From the IMG/VR virus record IMGVR_UViG_3300046529_000047, positions 1 to 21,324 of that record: a stretch of 21,324 nucleotides of DNA; one strand, written 5' to 3'. The stretch's first letter is position 1, and each line of letters starts with the position of its first letter. The notes beneath the pieces are model-generated. The model ran no database searches, was not told where the DNA came from, and worked only from the letters and a program-made list of their open reading frames with translations. The DNA is from a virus. The position numbers and the translations under genes are program-made. Of this stretch, positions 2,267 through 19,399 are shown piece by piece.

Positions 2267-4084
2267 TTAGGTCAGTCCAGTGTTGGCTTGCGCGACGAAG
2301 TGGTACTTGCTGATTTCCGAACCCAGACCACGGGCCACGCCAGCAGCATCGGTAGCCTGCGTATGGACGTTGATCGGACCGTTGATGTTGACTTCGCTGC
2401 TGCTGGTGTTCGACGTCGATGCGACCGGCGGCGCAGATACGCTTGAGCCAACGGGCAGAGAGGCGACCGCAGCGGCATTAGCCTGACCGAGCGACGCATA
2501 CACGCTGTTCGCATACCCTTGTCGCCGGGCGATGTTTGCCTCCGCAGCGCCAGGCCGCTCAAACTCGCGCGCGTGAATCTCCGCAGCTTGTGCGGCGGTC
2601 TTCGCAAGGCGAATGCGGCTATCAGCCAGCTTCTCTGTCGTCTTCAGCTCCTGAAGCATGAAGTCCGTCTGCTCACCGAACGTCGATTCCTTCAGCGAGT
2701 GGCCAAACTGCTGCTTGAATGCCTTAGCCCGAGGACCGAGCCATTGTGCGATGCCAGTTGCGCCCGATGTCGTGTTGACGGCGTTCGGATCAAGTCCGCT
2801 TTCCTGCATGAGGCTGCCGATGATCCCCGCGACTTGGGCATCGCTATAACCCGCTCCCTTGAGTCGGCCAGCCAGGTACTTCTGGCGATCGGAGAGTGAT
2901 CCAGAATTTGCGCCTTGCCGAGCCTTTCCGACCGGATCGCCGTCCCACGTTGAACCTTGGTGCGCCTTTAGGTAGTCGTCTTCGCCAGTGTTGAGGCCTT
3001 TGCTATAGACCATCGCACCGATACCGCCGAGCACAGCAAGAGCGGTAGCACCGATGCCGCCTCCAATGACGCCAAGAGCGGAACCAACTGAGCCAAGAGC
3101 GCCGGCGAGGCTAAGAAGCGGCGACACCATGCCAAGGACTTTGATCGCAGCCAGCCCGATCAGAACGTTTTTCCAGCCACCTACGGCTTCAGCAGCATCA
3201 TTGGCGATCTTGGCAAAGTCCTGGATCGACTTGACCGCGCCATTCACCCAGTTGGTGATGTCGTCCTTATGCGAGACGACCCAGTCGCCAAGTTGCTTGA
3301 TGTAGCCGATCAGCGTATCGAACGCAGGCATCAGCGCTTCAACGACCTTGATCCCGACGAGGGTAAAGGTGCGCTCAACGCCGAGCCACTTCTTGCGCAG
3401 TTCATCAGCCTGACGGGCATCCTCCGCAGAGATCGCGGACAACTTCTCCATCGCCGCGACCTGATCCAATACAGCAGAACGGCCTTGCTTCAGCAGATTG
3501 AACTGGTCATCGCTGATACCCATCTGTGACGCGACGAGTTGCGCGCGGCCCGGATCGGTCTTGTAGATCTTGGAAATGATGTCAGCGCGGGCCAGAAGAT
3601 AGGAATTTCCATCCTTCAAATCTTCTTTGTTACCACCCATCCGCCAGAACCATTGAAGCGACTCGCTTGATTGCCCCACCTTGAACTGCGCGATGGTCTT
3701 CTGCGATTCCTTCAACTGGGCGGTCATGCCCTCGGCCGTGCCGCCCGCATCTTCGGCCACGCGCTGCCACGCGGACAGGCGCTCTGTGCTTATCCCTAGG
3801 TTCTGGGACAGGCGCCCGAGGCTGGCCGCGCCGACGATCGTATTCTCAACGAAGTTCTTGATGCCGACGCCGGCAGTGAACACGCCGATCAGGGCAAGCG
3901 CCTCGTTGCGGATCTTGGAGAAGTATTGCGCTGCGACCTTGCCGGATGCCTCCATCTCTCTCGCGCGCTTCTGTGCTTCGTCGGACGTCGCCTTGAGATC
4001 CGTGCGGGCCTGCGCTGAACCGGTTTTGAATGCCTTCGGGTCAAGACCGAGTGTCACGACCAGCGAATCGATAACGGTGGCCAT
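2267..4084 (-). CDS. Tape measure protein with tail lysozyme domain
   Basis: A 605-residue protein starting at ATG 4084, two bases after the stop of the frameshifted chaperone extension. Residues 1-300 are helical and Ala/Lys/Glu-rich, as expected of a tape measure that sets tail length. Residues about 305-360 are hydrophobic and Gly/Ala-rich (LAGALGSVGSALGVIGGG), a possible membrane-active segment. Residues about 398-530 look like the Phage_lysozyme2 (tail lysozyme) domain, with AGIIGSLMQESGLDP (candidate catalytic Glu at about 428) and SGATGIAQWLG. The C-terminus is Ser/Asn-rich and ends in VNINGPINVHTQATD, a common tape-measure ending. The length is short for a tape measure, which suggests a short tail. 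The lysozyme domain would cut peptidoglycan during DNA entry. Confidence 0.88.
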   Translation of the reverse strand: MATVIDSLVVTLGLDPKAFKTGSAQARTDLKATSDEAQKRAREMEASGKVAAQYFSKIRNEALALIGVFTAGVGIKNFVENTIVGAASLGRLSQNLGISTERLSAWQRVAEDAGGTAEGMTAQLKESQKTIAQFKVGQSSESLQWFWRMGGNKEDLKDGNSYLLARADIISKIYKTDPGRAQLVASQMGISDDQFNLLKQGRSAVLDQVAAMEKLSAISAEDARQADELRKKWLGVERTFTLVGIKVVEALMPAFDTLIGYIKQLGDWVVSHKDDITNWVNGAVKSIQDFAKIANDAAEAVGGWKNVLIGLAAIKVLGMVSPLLSLAGALGSVGSALGVIGGGIGATALAVLGGIGAMVYSKGLNTGEDDYLKAHQGSTWDGDPVGKARQGANSGSLSDRQKYLAGRLKGAGYSDAQVAGIIGSLMQESGLDPNAVNTTSGATGIAQWLGPRAKAFKQQFGHSLKESTFGEQTDFMLQELKTTEKLADSRIRLAKTAAQAAEIHAREFERPGAAEANIARRQGYANSVYASLGQANAAAVASLPVGSSVSAPPVASTSNTSSSEVNINGPINVHTQATDAAGVARGLGSEISKYHFVAQANTGLT

Positions 4085-4086
4085 GA

Positions 4087-4685
4087 TTATTTACCTTGCT
4101 TTGAAAGCACGCGTTCGTTGTAGTTGTCGATCACTAGAACCTCCAACAAGTTGTAGAGGTCTTCGGCGCCGTAGACAGACTGCAACTCGTGCAGAGTCGC
4201 CATGCGTCGCGAAACGATGGTGCCAATCGAACGCGGCAGGTTTGCGTACTCAATGAGGCGCGAATTCGGAATACCGGGTGGCCCCGTATCGATTACGCGC
4301 CTACGGTAAAAAAATCCGTATGCAGATTCCAGATCGCCTTGCGCAGCGTGAGCATCGTTGCAACTTCTTCGATGTCATCTGGGATCAACGACCGAACGAC
4401 GCCGGGACTCGGCTGGATCTGGACGCACTCCATCATCTTGTCCAGAAGCGGCTTCGCGGCGTCGAACGGAAGTTTCGTGATTGCCTTGATACCCATCGCC
4501 GCGAGACCGGCGAGACCGGCCTCAGCGATGTTGTCGGGGATCTCGACGCCGGCGTTCATCAGGGCGAAGAGGGCGCGGCCGGCCCACTCTTCGGATTCGG
4601 CCGTGGGCAGTTCGGTCAAGACGAAAGATTTCCCTTTGTCCCGACCTTTCGCGTCGATCGTAATGATTGCAGTTTTACGTGCCAT
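4087..4685 (-). CDS. Tail assembly chaperone GT fusion made by -1 frameshift
   Basis: Inferred longer product of the chaperone gene. The zero frame reads GAT TTT TTT ACC near its end, with the T7 run at 4308-4314. Slipping back one base reads TAC CGT AGG and stays open for 73 codons to TAA at 4087-4089, instead of stopping at 4293-4295. The predicted fusion is about 199 residues. The extension ends in ATLHELQSVYGAEDLYNLLE and VLVIDNYNERVLS, a motif I recognise from T-type extensions of phage tail chaperones. It fills the whole gap to the tape measure start at 4084. The same arrangement (G, GT, tape measure) is classical in lambda. The shift itself is predicted, not shown. The extension could also be a separate 38-residue ORF starting at an internal ATG. 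Confidence 0.8.
4293..4685 (-). CDS. Tail assembly chaperone (gpG-like)
   Basis: A 130-residue protein starting at ATG 4685, one base after the TGA of the tail tube gene (TGATATG). It begins MARKTAIITIDAKGRDKGKSF and contains LTELPTAESEEWAGRALFAL, a pattern seen in tail chaperones of DUF3383/DUF3277 myophages. The remainder is mostly helical (DNIAEAGLAGLAAMGIKAI, KPLLDKMMECV). Such proteins are not part of the virion; they coat the tape measure before the tube polymerises around it. The position between tube and tape measure, and the slippery T-run eight codons from the end, support the call more than the sequence alone does. Confidence 0.82.
   Translation of the reverse strand: MARKTAIITIDAKGRDKGKSFVLTELPTAESEEWAGRALFALMNAGVEIPDNIAEAGLAGLAAMGIKAITKLPFDAAKPLLDKMMECVQIQPSPGVVRSLIPDDIEEVATMLTLRKAIWNLHTDFFTVGA
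4308..4314 (-). promoter_or_regulatory. Slippery heptamer for -1 programmed ribosomal frameshift
   Basis: Seven A on the plus strand read as T TTT TTT on the coding strand, placed exactly as X XXY YYZ relative to the zero frame. It lies four codons before the zero-frame stop and is the only homopolymer of this length in the chaperone gene. No convincing stimulatory stem-loop is seen at the usual spacing; weak CCGT/ACGG and TACCG/CGGTA pairings are possible downstream. Confidence 0.75.
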
Positions 4686-4686
4686 A

Positions 4687-5118
4687 TCAGAACGGAGCCG
4701 GGCTGACAGATTCGAAGGTGATTGCCCATTTACGCGGCTGAAGGATTTTCTTGCCGGTGGGCATCTTGCTTTTGCTGGTCATGATGCCTTTGGTGCAGGC
4801 GAACTTTTGTCCGGTGCCGGGCAGCAGGATCGTCAGTTGAGCAATGAAGATTTCACGCGCCGTATCTTCTGCGGTACCCCACGTATCGAAAATGAACGCG
4901 GACGCGGAATCGGCCTGCAAAGTAATTTCGATAATCGTAGGGTACGGCGTGTAGCCACCCGACAGTTTGCCGTCCACGCCCATCACGGCTTCAGCGGAGG
5001 TCACGTCTGCAGACGAGAACATGTCGTCGACGCTGTACCCCTGAAGTTGCTGTGGCACCGGGAAAATGCCACCGACCGATAACATTAAGACCGAGTTTGC
5101 GTTTGTTAAGGTAGCCAA
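4687..5118 (-). CDS. Tail tube protein (DUF3277 family)
   Basis: About 143 residues. I chose the TTG at 5116-5118 as start because GGAG lies at 5125-5128 with a 6-base spacer and no usable ATG is near; an in-frame TTG at 5130 would give four more residues but overlaps that Shine-Dalgarno. The protein runs ATLTNANSVLMLSVGGIFP, then LQGYSVDDMFSSADVTSAEAVMGVDGKLSGGY, TPYPTIIEITLQADSASA and ends KWAITFESVSPAPF. This matches the DUF3277 tail tube family: beta-rich subunits that stack inside the sheath. It lies next to the sheath gene apart from an intruding HNH gene. A terminator-like hairpin ends just 16 bases upstream of the start codon. Confidence 0.83.
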   Translation of the reverse strand: MATLTNANSVLMLSVGGIFPVPQQLQGYSVDDMFSSADVTSAEAVMGVDGKLSGGYTPYPTIIEITLQADSASAFIFDTWGTAEDTAREIFIAQLTILLPGTGQKFACTKGIMTSKSKMPTGKKILQPRKWAITFESVSPAPF

Positions 5119-5133
5119 TTCAAGCTCCAAAAG

Positions 5134-5190: not shown

Positions 5191-5775
5191 TTACGGCATG
5201 TCGGGCCAATAGCTATTAGATTTGGACCGGTTCTCGGAACCACGCAATACCTGCAAATTCGCCTCACAATGCAGGCCACATACACGCTTGCTTTGTAGCG
5301 GAACAATATGATCCACGTGATACCACTCGCCGGTGACCATACTCAAAAATTGAGCGGCGAAATAGAATTCTTCGATTTTGCTATTACTTGCCCACTTCGG
5401 CGTGGCTAGCAATTTTGATGCAGTGCGGCGCGCAATGGCAGCGATAACTCTGTGCTTGTTAGCTGCCTTCCAGGCTATGTTCCTCGCGCGCGCCCCATTG
5501 GGATCTGATGCATATGCTTGGGCGCTCCAGATCCGTACTTGGTCGACATTATTGGTGCGCCAGTCCGCCGCTCTTTTCCGCAGAGACTCTTGATGATCCG
5601 CATAATACTGCCGACTTTCTGAGTTGCGCCGATCAGCGTTCTTGTGATGGTATGCGCGGTTGCTGGCGCGCTCACAAAGTATGCATTCGGATCTTGTTCC
5701 AGCCTTCGTCTTGATCGGTCGAAATTCGAGAATGTGCTTAACTTCTCCGCACTTCGTGCAGTTTTTTGATTCCAT
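5191..5775 (-). CDS. HNH homing endonuclease (free-standing)
   Basis: A 194-residue protein, ATG at 5775. The N-terminus has two CxxC pairs, CTKCGEVKHILEF (residues 6-9) and ECILCERASNRAY (about 31-34), which would form a zinc-binding treble-clef-like module. The middle is basic with Trp/Arg/Tyr-rich repeats. The C-terminus holds the HNH core, WYHVDHIVPLQSK then VCGLHCEANLQVLRGSENRSKS, with D-H, the central Asn and the final basic Asn/Lys region present. Such enzymes nick DNA and copy themselves into intron-less or gene-free sites of related phages. Its base use is visibly more AT-rich than its neighbours, a sign of separate origin. Both flanking genes are intact, so it is not inside a split gene. 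Confidence 0.88.
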   Translation of the reverse strand: MESKNCTKCGEVKHILEFRPIKTKAGTRSECILCERASNRAYHHKNADRRNSESRQYYADHQESLRKRAADWRTNNVDQVRIWSAQAYASDPNGARARNIAWKAANKHRVIAAIARRTASKLLATPKWASNSKIEEFYFAAQFLSMVTGEWYHVDHIVPLQSKRVCGLHCEANLQVLRGSENRSKSNSYWPDMP

Positions 5776-5884: not shown

Positions 5885-7363
5885 TTATTGCACGTCGAGA
5901 CTCGCCAAAGACAGGCTTTGCACGGCGCCTCCGTCGGCGAACCACAAGGTATCCGCAGTCGGCCCTCTAGCCACACGTATTGCCGCGGTTGCTGGCCCGC
6001 GTTGGAAATACCAGCCCCGCGTGGAAATTGTCGGAGCTATCGTAATTCCGGCCGCGTTATTAATTTCTGCCGACTGCAGCGCAGATAACGTAACGCCGGT
6101 CCGAATGGCCCCAAAGTTCAATGCGGCATTGATGGCGTCCATATATGCTTGCTCGACAAGCGCATCGCCAGCCGGGTTGTACGGAACCGAATCGACTTGC
6201 GTCAGCAGATCCATGCCGGCGACCTGAAGCGAATCGTTCAGCCACATCTGGTTGAAGTAGGCATCAGCCCACAGGAACGGGCCGCTGATCTGGCCATTCG
6301 CGAGGAACGTCCAGCCGTTGTTCCGCGACGCCCATGCGCCATAGAACGAATACCCGTTAGCGGTGAGTGTGTCGCCGGTCGTTTCGTCGGTCACAGTCGC
6401 CGTCAGCCCGCTCTGCGAACGGAACATGAAGGTAGTGCGACCGTTGGTGCGCGCAAAGTCGAGCGATGCGGCGATGCCGAGCACGAACGCGGCAACCTGA
6501 GGATCTTTGTAGATCGACATGATTCCGGAGTAACCAGCTGCCTTGACGAGTGCCCCGAAGCACGTCGTGCTGTTCTGGACCGTTGCCTGTGCGTCCGTGT
6601 CCCATGCGACGTACGCATAGCGATTGTTCTTGGAGTTCGTCCATGCCGCGAAAGCAACCTTGTCGGCGGTGACCGGCTCGAACACGGTCATGAACGCCGC
6701 CCAGTTCTGGGAGACCTGGACGATGCCTTGCATGTTCGTTGCCGGAACACCTGCGACAGCACCTTGCGAGGTGACGGCGCCGGTTGCCGACGTCAGGTTC
6801 AGGCCAGCCGCCAGCGTGCCAGACACGAAGCTGATGGTCGACGAAGCGCCGGTCGTAGCGGAAGTGATCTTGAATGCCGCGCGCTGGCTGTCGTAGCTGA
6901 CCGTGCCGCCTAGCGAAGTAAAGCCGGCAGCGATAATCGTGGCGGCATTGGAAAAACTGGTCGCTGCGGACAGATTGATGGCCGACGAGGTCTTGAGAAC
7001 GCCGTCAATGGTCACGATCAGCGTGCCCGATAGCGCTTGCAACTGGGTCAGCGTCAGGCCGGCAACGGATGCGCCGCGCACATAGGCAGCTACTGACGTC
7101 GTCGGATACTGAGCGAAGAGAATGGCGCCCGGCGTCTTCGTGGCATTCACGTATGACAGGAAGTAGTTCCCTGCATAGATTGCCTCGGGGGCGGTCGCGC
7201 CGAAGAACGCGTCAACATCATCGCCGTTCGCGAAAGACATGACTGTGCCGATCGGCACAGAAGTATCGGCCGTCAGGATCAGGCCGTTCAGGTCAAATGC
7301 CGATCCGCCCGCGCCAACGACGCCCGGCTGAACATTAACAATGTCCGAGGCAGGAATGCTCAT
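5885..7363 (-). CDS. Contractile tail sheath protein (DUF3383 family)
   Basis: A 492-residue protein, ATG at 7363, with GGAG six bases upstream. It starts MSIPASDIVNVQPGVVGAGG and contains FFGATAPEAIYAGNYFLSY, a Ser/Thr/Ala-rich middle insertion, WAAFMTVFEP, FAAWTNSKNNRYAYVAWDT and, near the C-terminus, AYFNQMWLNDSLQVAGMDLL and RGWYFQRGPATAAIRVARGP. This set is characteristic of the DUF3383 sheath family. Sheath subunits surround the tube and contract to drive it through the envelope. The gene follows the neck terminator gene and a terminator-like hairpin, and it is the strongest single sign that the phage is a myovirus. Length is in the usual range for the family. Confidence 0.9.
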   Translation of the reverse strand: MSIPASDIVNVQPGVVGAGGSAFDLNGLILTADTSVPIGTVMSFANGDDVDAFFGATAPEAIYAGNYFLSYVNATKTPGAILFAQYPTTSVAAYVRGASVAGLTLTQLQALSGTLIVTIDGVLKTSSAINLSAATSFSNAATIIAAGFTSLGGTVSYDSQRAAFKITSATTGASSTISFVSGTLAAGLNLTSATGAVTSQGAVAGVPATNMQGIVQVSQNWAAFMTVFEPVTADKVAFAAWTNSKNNRYAYVAWDTDAQATVQNSTTCFGALVKAAGYSGIMSIYKDPQVAAFVLGIAASLDFARTNGRTTFMFRSQSGLTATVTDETTGDTLTANGYSFYGAWASRNNGWTFLANGQISGPFLWADAYFNQMWLNDSLQVAGMDLLTQVDSVPYNPAGDALVEQAYMDAINAALNFGAIRTGVTLSALQSAEINNAAGITIAPTISTRGWYFQRGPATAAIRVARGPTADTLWFADGGAVQSLSLASLDVQ

Positions 7364-12135: not shown

Positions 12136-14058
12136 TTAGCGGCCGAGGCGATGCGCGTTCGGGAAGGCGTCCGAAAAATCGCCCGGTAGCTGGCTGTCCG
12201 ATGCGATGCGCGCCTTCGGCGGAGCATCACCCGGCTTCGGCTGGGCAACCAGCACAGCCTTGTATGCGCTCGGGTGGACGCCAGCGACGTCGATCTTGAG
12301 CACGTCGAGGGCTGCCTTGTAGATGGCCTCGGCGCTGTCCATGGCGGTCAGCTTGCCGACATACGGCTTGGCGATTTCTTCGGCTTCAGCGATGCCGCGC
12401 AGGCGGGCGATCGTCTTCTGTTCTGCATCGCGCGCTGCTGCGTCGCAGGCGAGTTTGATCGCCTTGTCCATTGCTGCCTTGCTCATCGGAAGCGGCTCCT
12501 TGTTCGTGTCATCGCGCGGGGTTGCGTTTGCGCCACCCGGCGTTTGCGGCGGTTCATCCATTGCGGCGGGATCGGCAGGTTCTGCCGGCGTCGGTTCGTC
12601 GACCGCCTGACCGGCAGCCGGCGCGCTCAATTTGGCTTCGATCTGTGCGAGGTCTTCGTCGCTGATCTTGCCGCGAAGCATGTCGAGGATTTCGGCGCAC
12701 TTCGGATCGACGTTGTCTTCGGCGACATCGTCGTTATCCGGCTGTTCACCATCCAGCTTGTCGAGCAACTCGACGACATCTGCCAGATCGGTGTCCTGCG
12801 CCAGATGGGACTTGATCGCAGCAACGATGCCAGGCTTCTTCGCCAGCCAGTTGCTTTTTTTCACGCCCGCCAGAATCGAGTTCAGATCGATTGCGGCATC
12901 AGCGGCCATCTTCGGCTTCAGGACGGCGAGCAACGCCCCCTTAGCCATTACAGCTTTCTTACTCAGGGACTTGCTCACTGTTAGTGCTCCCATAGGGTTA
13001 ATAGAATCTGCTACAAGGACGTCAGGGCCTGCTCGGCCCTTTTCTACGAGTGCTACGTGGTTGAATCTGAGATTGCGTATGACCCCGTCATAAGGGACGC
13101 CCTCATACGTTCCCGGCGTCATGTCCGGGTCGTAGTAGTAGGCGCTGGAGATTTCCTGCTGCGCTCCGGTCTCGATTCCCCGGATAGCCCTATCGGTCCA
13201 GATGACAAGCGAGTTGTCGAGATAGGGCGCGTTGAACGCGGCGTCTGTGCCAGTCGACCCGACAATCAGATCGGGGCGGTGGTCCGAGGAATTGACCGGA
13301 ACGTGTTCGCTCAGAACCGGGATGTTGTTCGCGGTCGACGCAGCCTTAGCGAGTTCGTCCGGATCGCGGAGCAGCATGTAGATGCGCTCGGGCTCGAGGC
13401 CCAACTTGTCCCAGTCGGGGATTTCATTGCCGCGGTACGGGCAGACGTTTGCCTTGCTAATGTGCGTCAGCTCGACGTGCATGCGGCCGTCCTGGTCCGT
13501 CATGCGCACGCTGGCCTTGTCGAAGGCGAGGCGGTCCATTGCTGGCTTGTCGTCGTCGGCTGTCTGAGTGCCCAGAGCAACCTCGACGGTGCCCTTGACG
13601 CCAGGGTGAAGGGGCTGCGGCGGCTCGTCGAGCTTCGCCCACTTGAACGCGGTGTGTTCCTCGCGTTGCAGCTTGGGCGTGAACTTGCGCATGATGTCCA
13701 TGCGGAACGTGATGAAGTCGACGCCCTCCAGATCCTCGACGCTCGTCATGAGGCGAAGTTCGCCATAGGGGAGGCCGCCGATCTCTTCACGAGTCTCGCG
13801 GATCGCCGTTTGCTCGGGCGTTTCGTTATCGTCTGCTTTGCCGCCGGGGAAATCCCATTCGTTCGGATGATTCGACGTCGGGCTACGCAGAAGGAACAGG
13901 GCTTCGCCATCAGGCGTCACCATACAGATGCCAGCGCCGCGAATCTTTTCGTCCTTCGCGACAAACTCCTTTCCGACACTCTTGGGGATGCCGAGATTGC
14001 TTTTCCCCTCAGCCGCGGCGTACATCGCGCGCTTCTGCTTTTCGGATACGGTCGGCAT
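12136..14058 (-). CDS. NUDIX domain fused to DUF2213 prohead protease and scaffold
   Basis: 640 residues from ATG 14058, two bases after the stop of a 52-aa ORF. The ORF extends upstream to 14214, but those 52 residues are Arg-rich, unlike a protein start, and lie out of frame over that small gene. Residues 1-35 ([25 protein letters not shown]) are a phage N-terminal motif. Residues 40-150 are a NUDIX fold with an intact box (G73, E79, R87-E88, E91-E92, G94). Residues 175-350 are DUF2213, a putative prohead protease with candidate His252 (SEHVPV) and Ser304/305 (EISSAYYYD). The rest is acidic and Pro-rich (about 430-520), then helical, like a scaffold. It precedes cement and capsid genes as expected. 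NUDIX substrate unknown. Confidence 0.85.
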
Positions 14059-14060
14059 GG

Positions 14061-14219
14061 CTATGTGCAGGTAATGCGTACGCCACGCATGGCGACGCGC
14101 GATGCGATGAGGGCGGCTCGATCGGCGCCCACGAACGGGAAGATTGCGAAAGCGCAGATTTTCGCTGCGGGCATTGCCCAGCGCGCGAATTTCACGTTGA
14201 CTCGAATCACGCACTCCAT
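14061..14219 (-). CDS. Small 52-aa protein with a hydrophobic segment
   Basis: ATG at 14219 lies one base after the TGA of the 96-aa gene (TGATATG, a junction also used twice elsewhere in this window). The stop TAG at 14061-14063 is followed two bases later by the NUDIX-protease ATG. It begins [20 protein letters not shown] and continues [20 protein letters not shown], then [11 protein letters not shown]. This is a basic protein with an amphipathic or short membrane-like stretch at about residues 14-32. Small proteins of this shape occur in phage head operons, but I cannot name a family. No strong Shine-Dalgarno is seen; coupling from the upstream gene is likely. It competes with the N-terminal extension of the NUDIX frame, and I judge it more likely to be real. 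Confidence 0.6.
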
Positions 14220-15563: not shown

Positions 15564-15812
15564 ATGAAAGAAGGAATTGCGGTCGACTATGTCGGCTACG
15601 ACCACGAAGAGCCGCAGCGCGTCGTGGTCTATGTCGGCGAGAACGACGAATACTCGGCGCGCTTTAACCTGTCTGATCTGCTTGATACCGAGCTGGACAT
15701 GTTCAAGCTGAAAAGCGGCCTGACAGACAGTGCCGGCAAGCCGCGTTTCGATGCGATGGAGTTGGAGCTAACCGAAATGGTCAGGCGAATCAGGGCGATC
15801 AAGTACGGCTAG
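15564..15812 (+). CDS. Small plus-strand gene inside the minus-strand head operon, unknown
   Basis: 82 residues from ATG 15564, with CAGGAG at 15552-15557 and a 6-base spacer, a strong ribosome binding site. The frame is open further upstream to 15495, but that part antisense-overlaps the minor head gene and has no site. The protein is acidic and mixed alpha/beta: MKEGIAVDYVGYDHEEPQRV, VYVGENDEYSARFNLSDLLD, then FKLKSGLTDSAGKPRFDAME and ELTEMVRRIRAIKYG. No family is recognised. It exactly fills the gap between portal and minor head, which otherwise has no gene. Its TAG stop and the portal's TAG share one CTAG (15809-15812). Opposite orientation suggests a moron-like gene with its own control; no clear promoter is seen. 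Confidence 0.8.
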   Translation: MKEGIAVDYVGYDHEEPQRVVVYVGENDEYSARFNLSDLLDTELDMFKLKSGLTDSAGKPRFDAMELELTEMVRRIRAIKYG

Positions 15813-17377
15813 ACCGTCTCTTCCTCGCCTTCTTCCTGCTCATTGCCGGTCAGCTTCTCGGCATGAACCTCTAGGCCAACCTCAGGATTCGGCGGCTCAG
15901 GCATCAGGCTCAGGTCGAGCCCCGCATAGGGAGAATCAACTTCACCCGCCACGCGACTCCGGCTTTCTTCCGGCGCGATTACTGCGGCGCCGATCAGAAC
16001 CGCATCCGTATCGGCCTCGACCTTCCGGATATTCGCGCGCTTCTCTTCATCCATCGTGCGCATCGGCTCCCATTCGAAACCAATCTCGGGATCGATTTCG
16101 CCGAAGAGCGATAGCTGAACGACGTTCAGGATCTTCGACAGGTGCGGCGTGTAGATCTGCTGATTGGCCGATAGTGTGTCTTGGAAGACCTCAATCTCAC
16201 CGTCTGACGTGGCGTTCAGGCCGCTCGGCGTAATGCCGGTCAGATAGACCAGAGGCAACCCGGTCGGCGCGCACATCTGCTCCTGGCTTTGCGCCTGAAG
16301 CTTGTCCAGACTACCCAGCGGGGCAGAGATGTTGTCGAACTCTTCGTCGCTCTTGCTGATCGCATTGACGCCGTGATTGTCACGGGTCAAATTGAACAGG
16401 CTCATCCGGTTGTAGAAGTTAGACAAACCTTCTGCATTGGTGAGTTGCGACATGTCCGTCTTGAGCGTCCACACCGTGAAGGCGTGGATCAGATCAGATA
16501 CGGACTGACGCGTACGAAGCCAGTTATCGACGTACGGCTTGATCATCTGCGACAGCGACAGGCCCGCAAACGCATACGCCGGCTTGAGGATGTCGGGCAC
16601 TTCCCGCGTGACGACCGTCAACAGGCGGCTGGAGTGAATCTCCTTGCCCATGACGAACCAACTCGTCGGCTTGTAGAACGTCGTATCCAGCGGGTCGTTG
16701 GCGTTGTACCGGTTCGGGTATGACCAGTTCGGATCGATGACCGTCAGGCGCTTGATGGCACCCAGGCCGATCTTTGCCGGCGATTCGACCAGCTCCGTCT
16801 TCAACTCAGCCGTGTCGATCTGGTCCGAGACCATACCGACGTCGATGAAGATCTGCGAGCGACCGAAGAATCCATCCTGCTCAATCGCTTCGCGGAACTT
16901 GGCCTGCACATTCAGGCGCTTGAATTCGGCTTCGATCTTCTTGATCTTGTCCGACTTGTCTACTTCGCCCGACGCCTTGATCTTGACCCACTTGCGGGTC
17001 ATTTCCCGCGCGTAGACCTCAGCGGGCTTACGGAACTCGGGTATCTGCGCCCAGTTGGCAAGCGCAACGAAGCCGGGGAAAGCATAGCCCTGCTCGAATG
17101 CCGTATTGATGTTGTCCAACAGACCGAAACTGAGGGCGGAGCTTTCGCTGTAGCCCGCGTCCATCGCGATCTTGGCGCCAGTCCGCTCAGGGGGCAGAAC
17201 GCCCTTGAGCGGCTCGTAGGGGCGAAACAATTGCTCTTTGTTGACCTTCGTCGCCGGCTTAGCGCGCATCGCCAGCAATGCATCAAACGTCACCTTCATT
17301 GCCGCAGACTTCGCCGGCGCGATGGGCGCGACGTGCTGCGCGGCCATCTGGGCTTTTTTGCGTTGTCTGCGGTTCAT
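15809..17377 (-). CDS. Portal protein (DUF1073 family)
   Basis: A 522-residue protein, ATG at 17377 overlapping the terminase stop (ATGA). The first 40 residues are basic and Ala-rich. From about 85 on it carries the DUF1073 portal pattern: FPGFVALANWAQIPEFRKPAE, DGFFGRSQIFIDVG, ELVESPAKIGLGAIKRLTVIDPNW, GKEIHSSRLLTVVTREVPDIL, CAPTGLPLVYLTGITPSGLNAT and FQDTLSANQQIYTPHL. The C-terminal 70 residues are acidic and end EEGEEETV. Twelve copies would form the DNA entry ring at one capsid vertex. Order terminase-portal-minor head fits. The Acb1 anti-CBASS family was named partly from DUF1073-bearing proteins; nothing here points to more than the portal function. Confidence 0.9.
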   Translation of the reverse strand: MNRRQRKKAQMAAQHVAPIAPAKSAAMKVTFDALLAMRAKPATKVNKEQLFRPYEPLKGVLPPERTGAKIAMDAGYSESSALSFGLLDNINTAFEQGYAFPGFVALANWAQIPEFRKPAEVYAREMTRKWVKIKASGEVDKSDKIKKIEAEFKRLNVQAKFREAIEQDGFFGRSQIFIDVGMVSDQIDTAELKTELVESPAKIGLGAIKRLTVIDPNWSYPNRYNANDPLDTTFYKPTSWFVMGKEIHSSRLLTVVTREVPDILKPAYAFAGLSLSQMIKPYVDNWLRTRQSVSDLIHAFTVWTLKTDMSQLTNAEGLSNFYNRMSLFNLTRDNHGVNAISKSDEEFDNISAPLGSLDKLQAQSQEQMCAPTGLPLVYLTGITPSGLNATSDGEIEVFQDTLSANQQIYTPHLSKILNVVQLSLFGEIDPEIGFEWEPMRTMDEEKRANIRKVEADTDAVLIGAAVIAPEESRSRVAGEVDSPYAGLDLSLMPEPPNPEVGLEVHAEKLTGNEQEEGEEETV

Positions 17378-18798
17378 CGAGTGTGACCCATGCGGGCGAG
17401 TTGTTTGAGAGCGTCTTGCGATATCTGCATGGGCTCAAGACCGGGAGCAAATATCATCACGAAGGCATCAGCCAGGTTCGGCGACGCAACCTCACGTTTC
17501 GCCAGATCCTTTTTGCTTTCAACCTTGACCTTGCCGTTGTTGTCGTAGTCCCGCTTGGGCGTGGACAACTCGTCAATCAACTGGTCGAGATAGGGAAGGT
17601 CGCTCGAGATGCTGATCATCTCGTCGTCGCTGAACTTCTCGCCCTTGCGGATAGCGTTGTAGGTATTGCGGAACCGATCGGCGACCAGCCACCATGTCTG
17701 GGCCTTCAGATTCAGGAACATGTCCTTGTTCTTCGTGCCCGTCTGGTATTCGGCGTCGGGCTTGAACACCGCGGCGCCAGCGTTGAACTTCTGATACTGG
17801 ATGCGACCGTCGACGACTGTGGAGTTCAGTTCGCCGAACTTGGCGCCTGCGCTTGCGCCGACACCAATAGAGTCGTACGTGACCGCCGCGCTGCGCTCCT
17901 GAGCGGCCTTCCAGACGCGAGTACAGGACTTGAGTAATTCGTCCTCACCAGCCTTCCAGAGGTCTGCCCACGACACCACAGAGCCATGCGCATACACATT
18001 TGCGCACTTGTCCGAGCCAGAATCGGCAATGTCGTAACCGATGCGCTTGCGGCCCGAGGCTTCGAACCCTAGCACCTTGTGTGCATCGATCGCGGCCATG
18101 ATCCACGAACGCTTGATGATCGAATCGTCGTCGTTGTCCTTTGGGACGCCGAGGTAGATATGCGCGAACTCGTCTTCGTCTTCGTCCCTGGCTGCGGCGA
18201 TGACATCCAGCATCGTCTGCGACAGGAACGGATTCTCGTCGTAGTTGATGAGCCGGACTAATGTTCCAGGGGGCGGATTGATAACGAAACGACGATATGC
18301 GAAATCCGTCGCGAGCCGCGGGTTGAACACAATCCAGACCTGCGAGCCCTGTTTGCGGATCGTCGCCTCAAGGATCTTCCACTGCTCCTCGGTGAGGTTG
18401 TGGCCTTCCTCTATCCAGAGGACGTCGATACCTTCCAGCGACTTGATTTCGTCGATCGACCGCCACAAGCCATAAAACAGGAACTCGGCGCCCGTCTTGC
18501 GCCCGATGATCTTGTTGTCGAGCACCCGGAACTGGCTGCTCAGCCCGAACCGGTCAATCTGGTTCTTGAGCAGGGTATATACCGACTCCTCAATCTTGTT
18601 CTGAAACTGACGGACACAGAGAAAACGTAACTTTGCGTTGCTGGCCAGATATGTCGCGAACCCTGCTGCATCCCATGACTTGGACGATGCACGACCGCCA
18701 TACAGGACACGGTTCCGTACCGGCTTATCACCGACTATCTTTGCCGCCCAGAAGGCGCGCAGAACCGGATTCAGCGTCGGCGGGCTAGCTTGCTCCAT
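17374..18798 (-). CDS. terL: Terminase large subunit (ATPase/nuclease)
   Basis: I use ATG 18798 (474 residues, 14-base overlap with the small subunit gene); a GTG at 18840 would add 14 residues and a 56-base overlap. Residue numbers here follow the longer form. The N-terminal ATPase has GGRASSKSW (48-56, Walker A of the PBSX/Terminase_3 type), LWIEEGHNL (141-149, Walker B with catalytic Glu) and VFNP (171-174, coupling motif). The nuclease half has candidate metal-binding acids in GYDIADSG (D270), TYDSIGVG (D323) and NLADAFVM (D458). The motor pumps DNA into the prohead through the portal encoded next. Headful packaging is possible but not shown. Confidence 0.93.
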   Translation of the reverse strand: MEQASPPTLNPVLRAFWAAKIVGDKPVRNRVLYGGRASSKSWDAAGFATYLASNAKLRFLCVRQFQNKIEESVYTLLKNQIDRFGLSSQFRVLDNKIIGRKTGAEFLFYGLWRSIDEIKSLEGIDVLWIEEGHNLTEEQWKILEATIRKQGSQVWIVFNPRLATDFAYRRFVINPPPGTLVRLINYDENPFLSQTMLDVIAAARDEDEDEFAHIYLGVPKDNDDDSIIKRSWIMAAIDAHKVLGFEASGRKRIGYDIADSGSDKCANVYAHGSVVSWADLWKAGEDELLKSCTRVWKAAQERSAAVTYDSIGVGASAGAKFGELNSTVVDGRIQYQKFNAGAAVFKPDAEYQTGTKNKDMFLNLKAQTWWLVADRFRNTYNAIRKGEKFSDDEMISISSDLPYLDQLIDELSTPKRDYDNNGKVKVESKKDLAKREVASPNLADAFVMIFAPGLEPMQISQDALKQLARMGHTR

Positions 18799-19399
18799 AG
18801 AAGTGATCGAGGCTCGTTGGTACGTCTTCGCCCGGGCCACCTTGCTCGACGGTCAGCCCATAAGCTTCGCGTTCAAGCGCCACCAGCGTTTTCAGCGTCT
18901 CTGCCAGCTTCTTCATGCTGTCTATGCGACCTGCGCTGGAGATGACCTTCATGTACAGGTCATTGCGCTTGTCATTACCGCGGTCATCCGGCGAACGAAG
19001 AATCTCGCCAAGTTGCTCGAACAACTCACGGTTCTCGGTGACCTGCTCAAGTTCGTCCAGCATCGCCATTGCGAGGCGGCGGGACTTGGCAATGTCTTTG
19101 CGATGAGCGAGTCGGATGCCCGCGATGACTTCCGCGTTGGCCTCGACAATCGCCCGGTCAGTTACCGCCTGTTCCGTGGTAACCGAGGTGGTAACCGTGC
19201 GCGTGGTAACTAGCTGCTCAGCCTTATCCTGTATGCGTTTGCTGAGATCGCGCACCCATCCGTCGCGCTTCGCACGCTTGGCGATAGCCACATGCGACAC
19301 GCCTTGTGATGCCGCAATCTCCCGCACCGACAACAAGCCGGCCCGGTAGTCGGCTTCAATGCGCTCCCAGTCCGGCGCGGCTTTCTTTGGCTGCGCCAT
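18785..19399 (-). CDS. terS: Terminase small subunit
   Basis: A 204-residue protein, ATG at 19399 with AAGG seven bases upstream. Residues about 10-50 form a helix-turn-helix (WERIEADYRAGLLSVREIA, then SQGVSHVAIAKRAKRDGW) of the type that binds the packaging site. A long helical middle region (KRIQDKAEQLVTTRTVTTS, then HRKDIAKSRRLAMAMLDELE) would mediate ring formation. The C-terminus (LVALEREAYGLTVEQGGPG) is the typical segment that contacts the large subunit. It sits directly before terL and overlaps it. Cos or pac site type cannot be read from the window. Confidence 0.85.
   Translation of the reverse strand: MAQPKKAAPDWERIEADYRAGLLSVREIAASQGVSHVAIAKRAKRDGWVRDLSKRIQDKAEQLVTTRTVTTSVTTEQAVTDRAIVEANAEVIAGIRLAHRKDIAKSRRLAMAMLDELEQVTENRELFEQLGEILRSPDDRGNDKRNDLYMKVISSAGRIDSMKKLAETLKTLVALEREAYGLTVEQGGPGEDVPTSLDHFYGAS

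Follow-up and report, generated by a model that had tools for sequence, protein, structure and literature searches.

A probable programmed -1 frameshift joins G- and T-type tail chaperone frames in a family of contractile-tailed phages

The DNA analysed here (the window) is a linear stretch of 21,324 bases from IMG/VR virus record IMGVR_UViG_3300046529_000047, and its structural genes lie on the minus strand (Table 1). Its genes from terminase and portal onward form a contractile-tail (myovirus-type) module, which includes baseplate genes (Dit-like, Pam3_gp18 and E217_GP41). A tube role is assigned to the E217_Gp32-family gene because of its position after the sheath gene, and the PHROG families matched by the lysozyme-domain protein are those of tape measure and lytic tail protein. 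The G/GT locus (4685-4087) sits between the tube and tape measure genes.

Between the sheath and tube genes the window also carries a 194-aa ORF (5191-5775, minus strand) with CxxC pairs and an HNH endonuclease-like H-V-D-H-I-V-P-L stretch; a Pfam search with this ORF returned no match, and a GC hairpin and T-run that resemble an intrinsic terminator follow it directly before the tube gene. The ORF looks like a homing-type gene inserted within the tail operon. A Rha-family regulator gene lies between the tube and chaperone genes of Klebsiella phage ST899-OXA48phi17.1 (L009:864-1421), and is another cargo insertion in this region of the tail module. Elsewhere in the window, in the head protease/scaffold position, a single 692-aa ORF (12136-14214, minus strand) joins NUDIX (residues 92-204) to DUF2213 (238-404).

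Table 1. Features of the window that bear on the chaperone locus, with the evidence for each.
Feature	Coordinates	Strand	Evidence
Terminase	17374-18840	-	PF04466
Portal	15809-17377	-	PF06381
Tail sheath (DUF3383)	5885..7363	-	PF11863, E 9e-136; homologs annotated tail sheath
Tail tube protein, presumed partner of the T extension	4687..5130	-	PF22764 E217_Gp32, E 1e-20
G-type tail assembly chaperone (putative), 130 aa, zero frame	4293..4685	-	PHROG 1932; AF2 model
Slippery heptamer (candidate) T TTT TTT, codons GAT TTT TTT	4308..4314	-	Sequence; TTT in 84/84 distinct relatives
Possible stimulatory stem-loop, not established	4256..4302	-	Fold z -2.05; covariation not beyond shuffles
Zero-frame stop TAA ending the short form	4293..4295	-	Sequence
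T-type extension in -1 frame, 73 codons plus TAA; fusion 199 aa	4087..4308	-	PHROG 3976; -1 in 84/84
Tape measure protein, presumed partner, with tail lysozyme domain	2267..4084	-	PHROG 9570/2013/2276; PF18013

The zero-frame reading around the end of G is CAT ACG GAT TTT TTT ACC GTA GGC GCG TAA, which encodes the C-terminus ...LHTDFFTVGA*. GAT TTT TTT ACC is in register at 4316-4305, and the heptamer precedes the G stop by four codons; the initial annotation had placed a slip site here, and its coordinates and residues proved to be right. Such a site is rare in the window: across 15 other window genes with 4,828 codons in all, T TTT TTN does not recur in the same register, NNT TTT occurs only five times, and the phenylalanine codon is TTT in 39 of 206 cases in other window genes. 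The -1 reading from the slip site, YRRRVIDTGPPG...VIDNYNERVLSKQGK, stays open for 73 codons (4308-4090) and ends with TAA at 4089-4087, which leaves a gap of two bases to the tape measure ATG (4084-4082), as had also been claimed. The open -1 frame by itself is weak evidence, since in the other genes of the window, too, 14% of stretches of 73 codons are open in -1.

G matches PHROG 1932 (tail assembly chaperone) at E 4.8e-43 and the extension matches PHROG 3976 (listed as of unknown function) at E 1.9e-19; a match to PHROG 18181 covers both halves (E 7e-6), and the fusion proteins of four relatives hit the same two PHROG families as that of the window. An AF2 model of G built on a 38-row alignment of relatives reached a pLDDT of 85, and single-sequence AF2 was poor (pLDDT 41). 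Comparison of the model with BFVD viral models gave matches with E below 1e-5; gp01 of Acinetobacter phage AB1 is among them, as is one protein annotated as a tail assembly chaperone. Among PDB structures the model had no match at E<=0.001, YqbN (3klu) appearing only at E 8.6; the family profile found nothing among PDB sequences, and no Pfam or NCBIfam model matches G or T. The profile match and the predicted fold, the latter through its viral counterparts, identify G as a tail assembly chaperone.

We collected relatives of the locus by tblastn with the fusion protein (103 phage records), by pattern scans (at least 570 confirmed IMG/VR contigs) and by a single-sequence scan of genome contigs, which yielded five Achromobacter loci. 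We analysed 128 loci, leaving two truncated ones unscored; 84 of them differ within the 210 bases that surround the site and come from isolates, prophages and metagenomes, and since they are related they do not represent 84 independent events. Every one of the 84 carries the extension in -1 relative to G, and the aligned slip codon is TTT in all of them; elsewhere in the same genes TTT accounts for 96 of 352 phenylalanine codons (27%). In an alignment of the window with 12 relatives that are 30-85% identical to it, TTT occupies this position in 13 of 13 representatives, an outcome with a probability near 5e-8 by chance at 27% if the representatives are treated as independent. The initial annotation had held that a shift would be refuted by relatives with neither the T-run nor an open -1 frame; the opposite was seen, with TTT and the -1 extension kept in 84 of 84.

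The base before the slip codon is T in 82 of 84 loci, the remaining two reading GAG TTT TTT. A strict T TTT TTN like that of the window is found in 62 of the 84; others have GAT TTT TCN (15/84), GGT TTT TCT (3/84, which fits G GGT TTT) or GCT TTT GTA (2/84). About a fifth of relatives have no heptamer and keep only NNT TTT; some relatives can do without the strict heptamer. Distances from the site to the G stop range from 5 to 33 codons, which indicates that the site is fixed and the tail of G is free. One locus does not obviously fit a rule of T followed by TTT: Yersinia phage P744 (L133:1441-1677) has a homolog of the extension in -1, and the matching place in its G gene reads AGT TTC TTC, without a T-run.

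Two records in this collection are unusual in other respects. The 62-kb contig IMGVR_UViG_2700989241_000001 has two chaperone loci of different types (L022/L051 and L043) about 20 kb apart, an arrangement that a tandem of two related prophages would give. Record OZ035751.1 (L008), titled Lambdavirus PDP110P1, carries a contractile-tail-type chaperone locus, and its genus label therefore looks doubtful.

Purifying selection acts on the extension at the protein level when it is read in -1. In the clade that contains the window its dN/dS is 0.08 in that frame versus 1.5 and 4.7 in the other two, and dN/dS of G is likewise 0.08; in the 30 codons that directly follow the slip and precede an ATG at 4203-4201 it is 0.06, an approximate value because synonymous divergence is high. 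Of two other clades, found partly in Achromobacter, one has a dN/dS of 0.26 over the whole extension and 0.32 over its first 30 codons, and the other has 0.14 and 0.24. All of these values were computed within clades, pooled values over distant pairs being saturated. Immediately behind the slip the family keeps the conserved residues F-Y/F-R-R-R-x-I/V-D-x-G. Since both the selection and the conserved residues start directly after the slip, translation from the slip site onward is needed.

From these observations it seems very probable that G and a G-T fusion are made from one gene through a -1 ribosomal slip on the T-run, and the initial proposal of two tail chaperone frames joined by such a shift is supported, G by its profile and fold matches and the extension as a conserved family that is always in -1. 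Most ribosomes would read G and terminate at 4295-4293; a minority would slip on GAT UUU UUU, where the phenylalanine tRNA or tRNAs would move back by one base and pair anew with the U-run, and translation in -1 would then give the 199-aa fusion. By analogy with lambda, many copies of G and few of GT may coat the tape measure protein, the T part may recruit tube subunits, and both proteins may leave the finished tail. Slippage in the cell, its efficiency and these roles of G and GT are what we infer from sequence and analogy. Several points count against a slip here: in E. coli, U_UUU_UUU slips less readily than A_AAA_AAG (PMC5009743), the candidate stem is weak, a Shine-Dalgarno-like stimulator was not found at 10-14 nt, and the G model has no significant match among solved structures.

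The variant sites suggest what the slip may require. At T TTT TTN both tRNAs can re-pair; at TTT TCN and TTT GTA sites the A-site tRNA re-pairs poorly, and the P-site phenylalanine tRNA can re-pair UUU to UUU. Because the TCN and GUA sites thus allow only P-site re-pairing well, the common denominator would be a P-site TTT with a T before it. It is possible, if on balance somewhat doubtful, that the minimal -1 signal of this family is NNU UUU, with tRNA-Phe on U_UUU in the P site and a free choice of A-site codon, and that heptamers and stems are lineage-specific boosters.

Three other origins of the two frames were weighed. Slippage of RNA polymerase on the T-run would produce mRNAs with altered numbers of U, and the fusion would then be read from these edited transcripts. 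Occasional slippage of this kind is conceivable on the T7 run of the window and on the runs of T8 or longer in some relatives; however, many relatives keep the -1 extension with only four to six T (TTT TCN, TTT GTA, TTT TTC/TTA/TTG), and the codon phase is always kept. Runs of four to six T are too short for efficient polymerase slippage, which argues against it as the shared mechanism, and we regard it as very unlikely. A sequencing error or a decaying gene might be suspected, since homopolymers are prone to error, but the identical T7 run recurs in two separately assembled contigs (L012 and L013), which makes an error unlikely. The frame relation and the TTT codon in 84 distinct loci, together with low dN/dS on both parts, refute error and decay, and the chance that either explains the locus is negligible.

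T might instead be a separate small protein, made by re-initiation or from its own start inside the -1 frame; a separate hypothetical ORF is indeed present there in the records of AP22, AsaM-56, PA-1, KPP10 and other phages, and the window extension contains one in-frame ATG, that at 4203-4201. This ATG, however, has no Shine-Dalgarno sequence and is not kept in two relatives (L017 and L019), the codons that precede it are under purifying selection, and no start codon common to the relatives' extensions was found. In addition, ATG, GTG and TTG are absent throughout the extension in two distinct loci, one of which is Acetobacter phage phiAO1 (L010), and a separately started T is strongly argued against there. 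We consider a separate T extremely improbable, and the ribosomal slip remains our preferred reading.

Stimulators of the putative slip were also sought. The initial annotation had stated that an obvious stimulatory stem is lacking, which is partly wrong. A candidate 7-bp stem is predicted in the window 5 nt past the heptamer, in which AGGCGCG (4302-4296) pairs with CGCGCCU (4262-4256) around an inner helix; its folding energy is -23.7 kcal/mol vs -18.1 for shuffles (z -2.05), and it is not the sole possible fold, since inclusion of 7 more bases changes the minimum-energy fold. In eight relatives the stem register pairs best of eight registers tried, and its share of paired cells was equalled by 16 of 500 shuffles. 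One relative (L014) has two double changes that preserve stem pairs, and three (L016, L017 and L018) break the window register; covariation counts as high were reached by 10-30% of 500 shuffles, so covariation gives no support beyond shuffles. Across the family the 70 nt downstream of the site fold like shuffles (median z -0.27, with 13 of 84 below -2), and no Shine-Dalgarno-like stimulator is conserved at the usual 10-14 nt. A lineage-specific stem in the window is possible.

It had been predicted that automatic annotation would miss the extension, and this proved right: of the first ten relatives consulted, four leave it unannotated, five show it as a separate hypothetical ORF, and one has a record without any annotation. 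Our search of the open-access literature found no description of a frameshifted chaperone for the DUF3383/Obolenskvirus-like group. In a large family of contractile-tailed phages and prophages (Acinetobacter, Aeromonas, Pseudomonas, Klebsiella and Achromobacter are concerned, with hundreds of IMG/VR contigs) GT is split or missing, and the present analysis corrects their annotation. The natural series of slip sites (TTT TTT, TTT TTC, TTT TCT, TTT GTA) should be useful for gauging the minimal needs of bacterial -1 shifts.

Tail chaperones made by programmed -1 frameshifting form an established class (PMC5009743), and the view that the window locus is an unannotated member of this G/GT class is well supported. 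The tail assembly chaperones of Vandenendeviridae and Andersonviridae (Adele; KPP10) use a -1 frameshift at GTTTTT (PMC12846349), a sequence that fits the rule of T plus P-site TTT. They resemble the window in gene order, in having a short and a long chaperone and in shifting to -1 at a phenylalanine TTT near the end of G, and the KPP10 extension shares with that of the window an LHELQTxYxxEDLYxLLE block; unlike them, the window has a full T TTT TTT preceded by GA rather than GTTTTT, and the G parts are highly diverged. We found GTT TTT in KPP10 and Pseudomonas phage 254, and GGT TTT TTC in a Bordetella phage, in each case in register and with a -1 extension. In the Haemophilus/Aggregatibacter phage Aaphi23 (NC_004827), ORF54-54' shows the same sheath-tube-chaperone-tape order with GAT TTT TTT in register, and its -1 extension is annotated as a two-piece joined CDS; the arrangement is thus already annotated in a distant relative, whose extension is only about 43% identical to that of the window over 44 residues and whose G has diverged. 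Obolenskvirus AP22, Popoffvirus AsaM-56, Pantoea PA-1 and Pseudomonas Amjad_SA have G and T homologs in the -1 relation with a TTT slip codon, but were deposited as two genes and not as a frameshift. In position and in the kind of shift, lambda G/GT and P2 E/E' resemble the window: they also precede the tape measure gene and shift to -1 near the end of G. Unlike the window, lambda slips on G GGA AAG; the P2 slip site, T TTT TTG, is nearly the same as that of the window.
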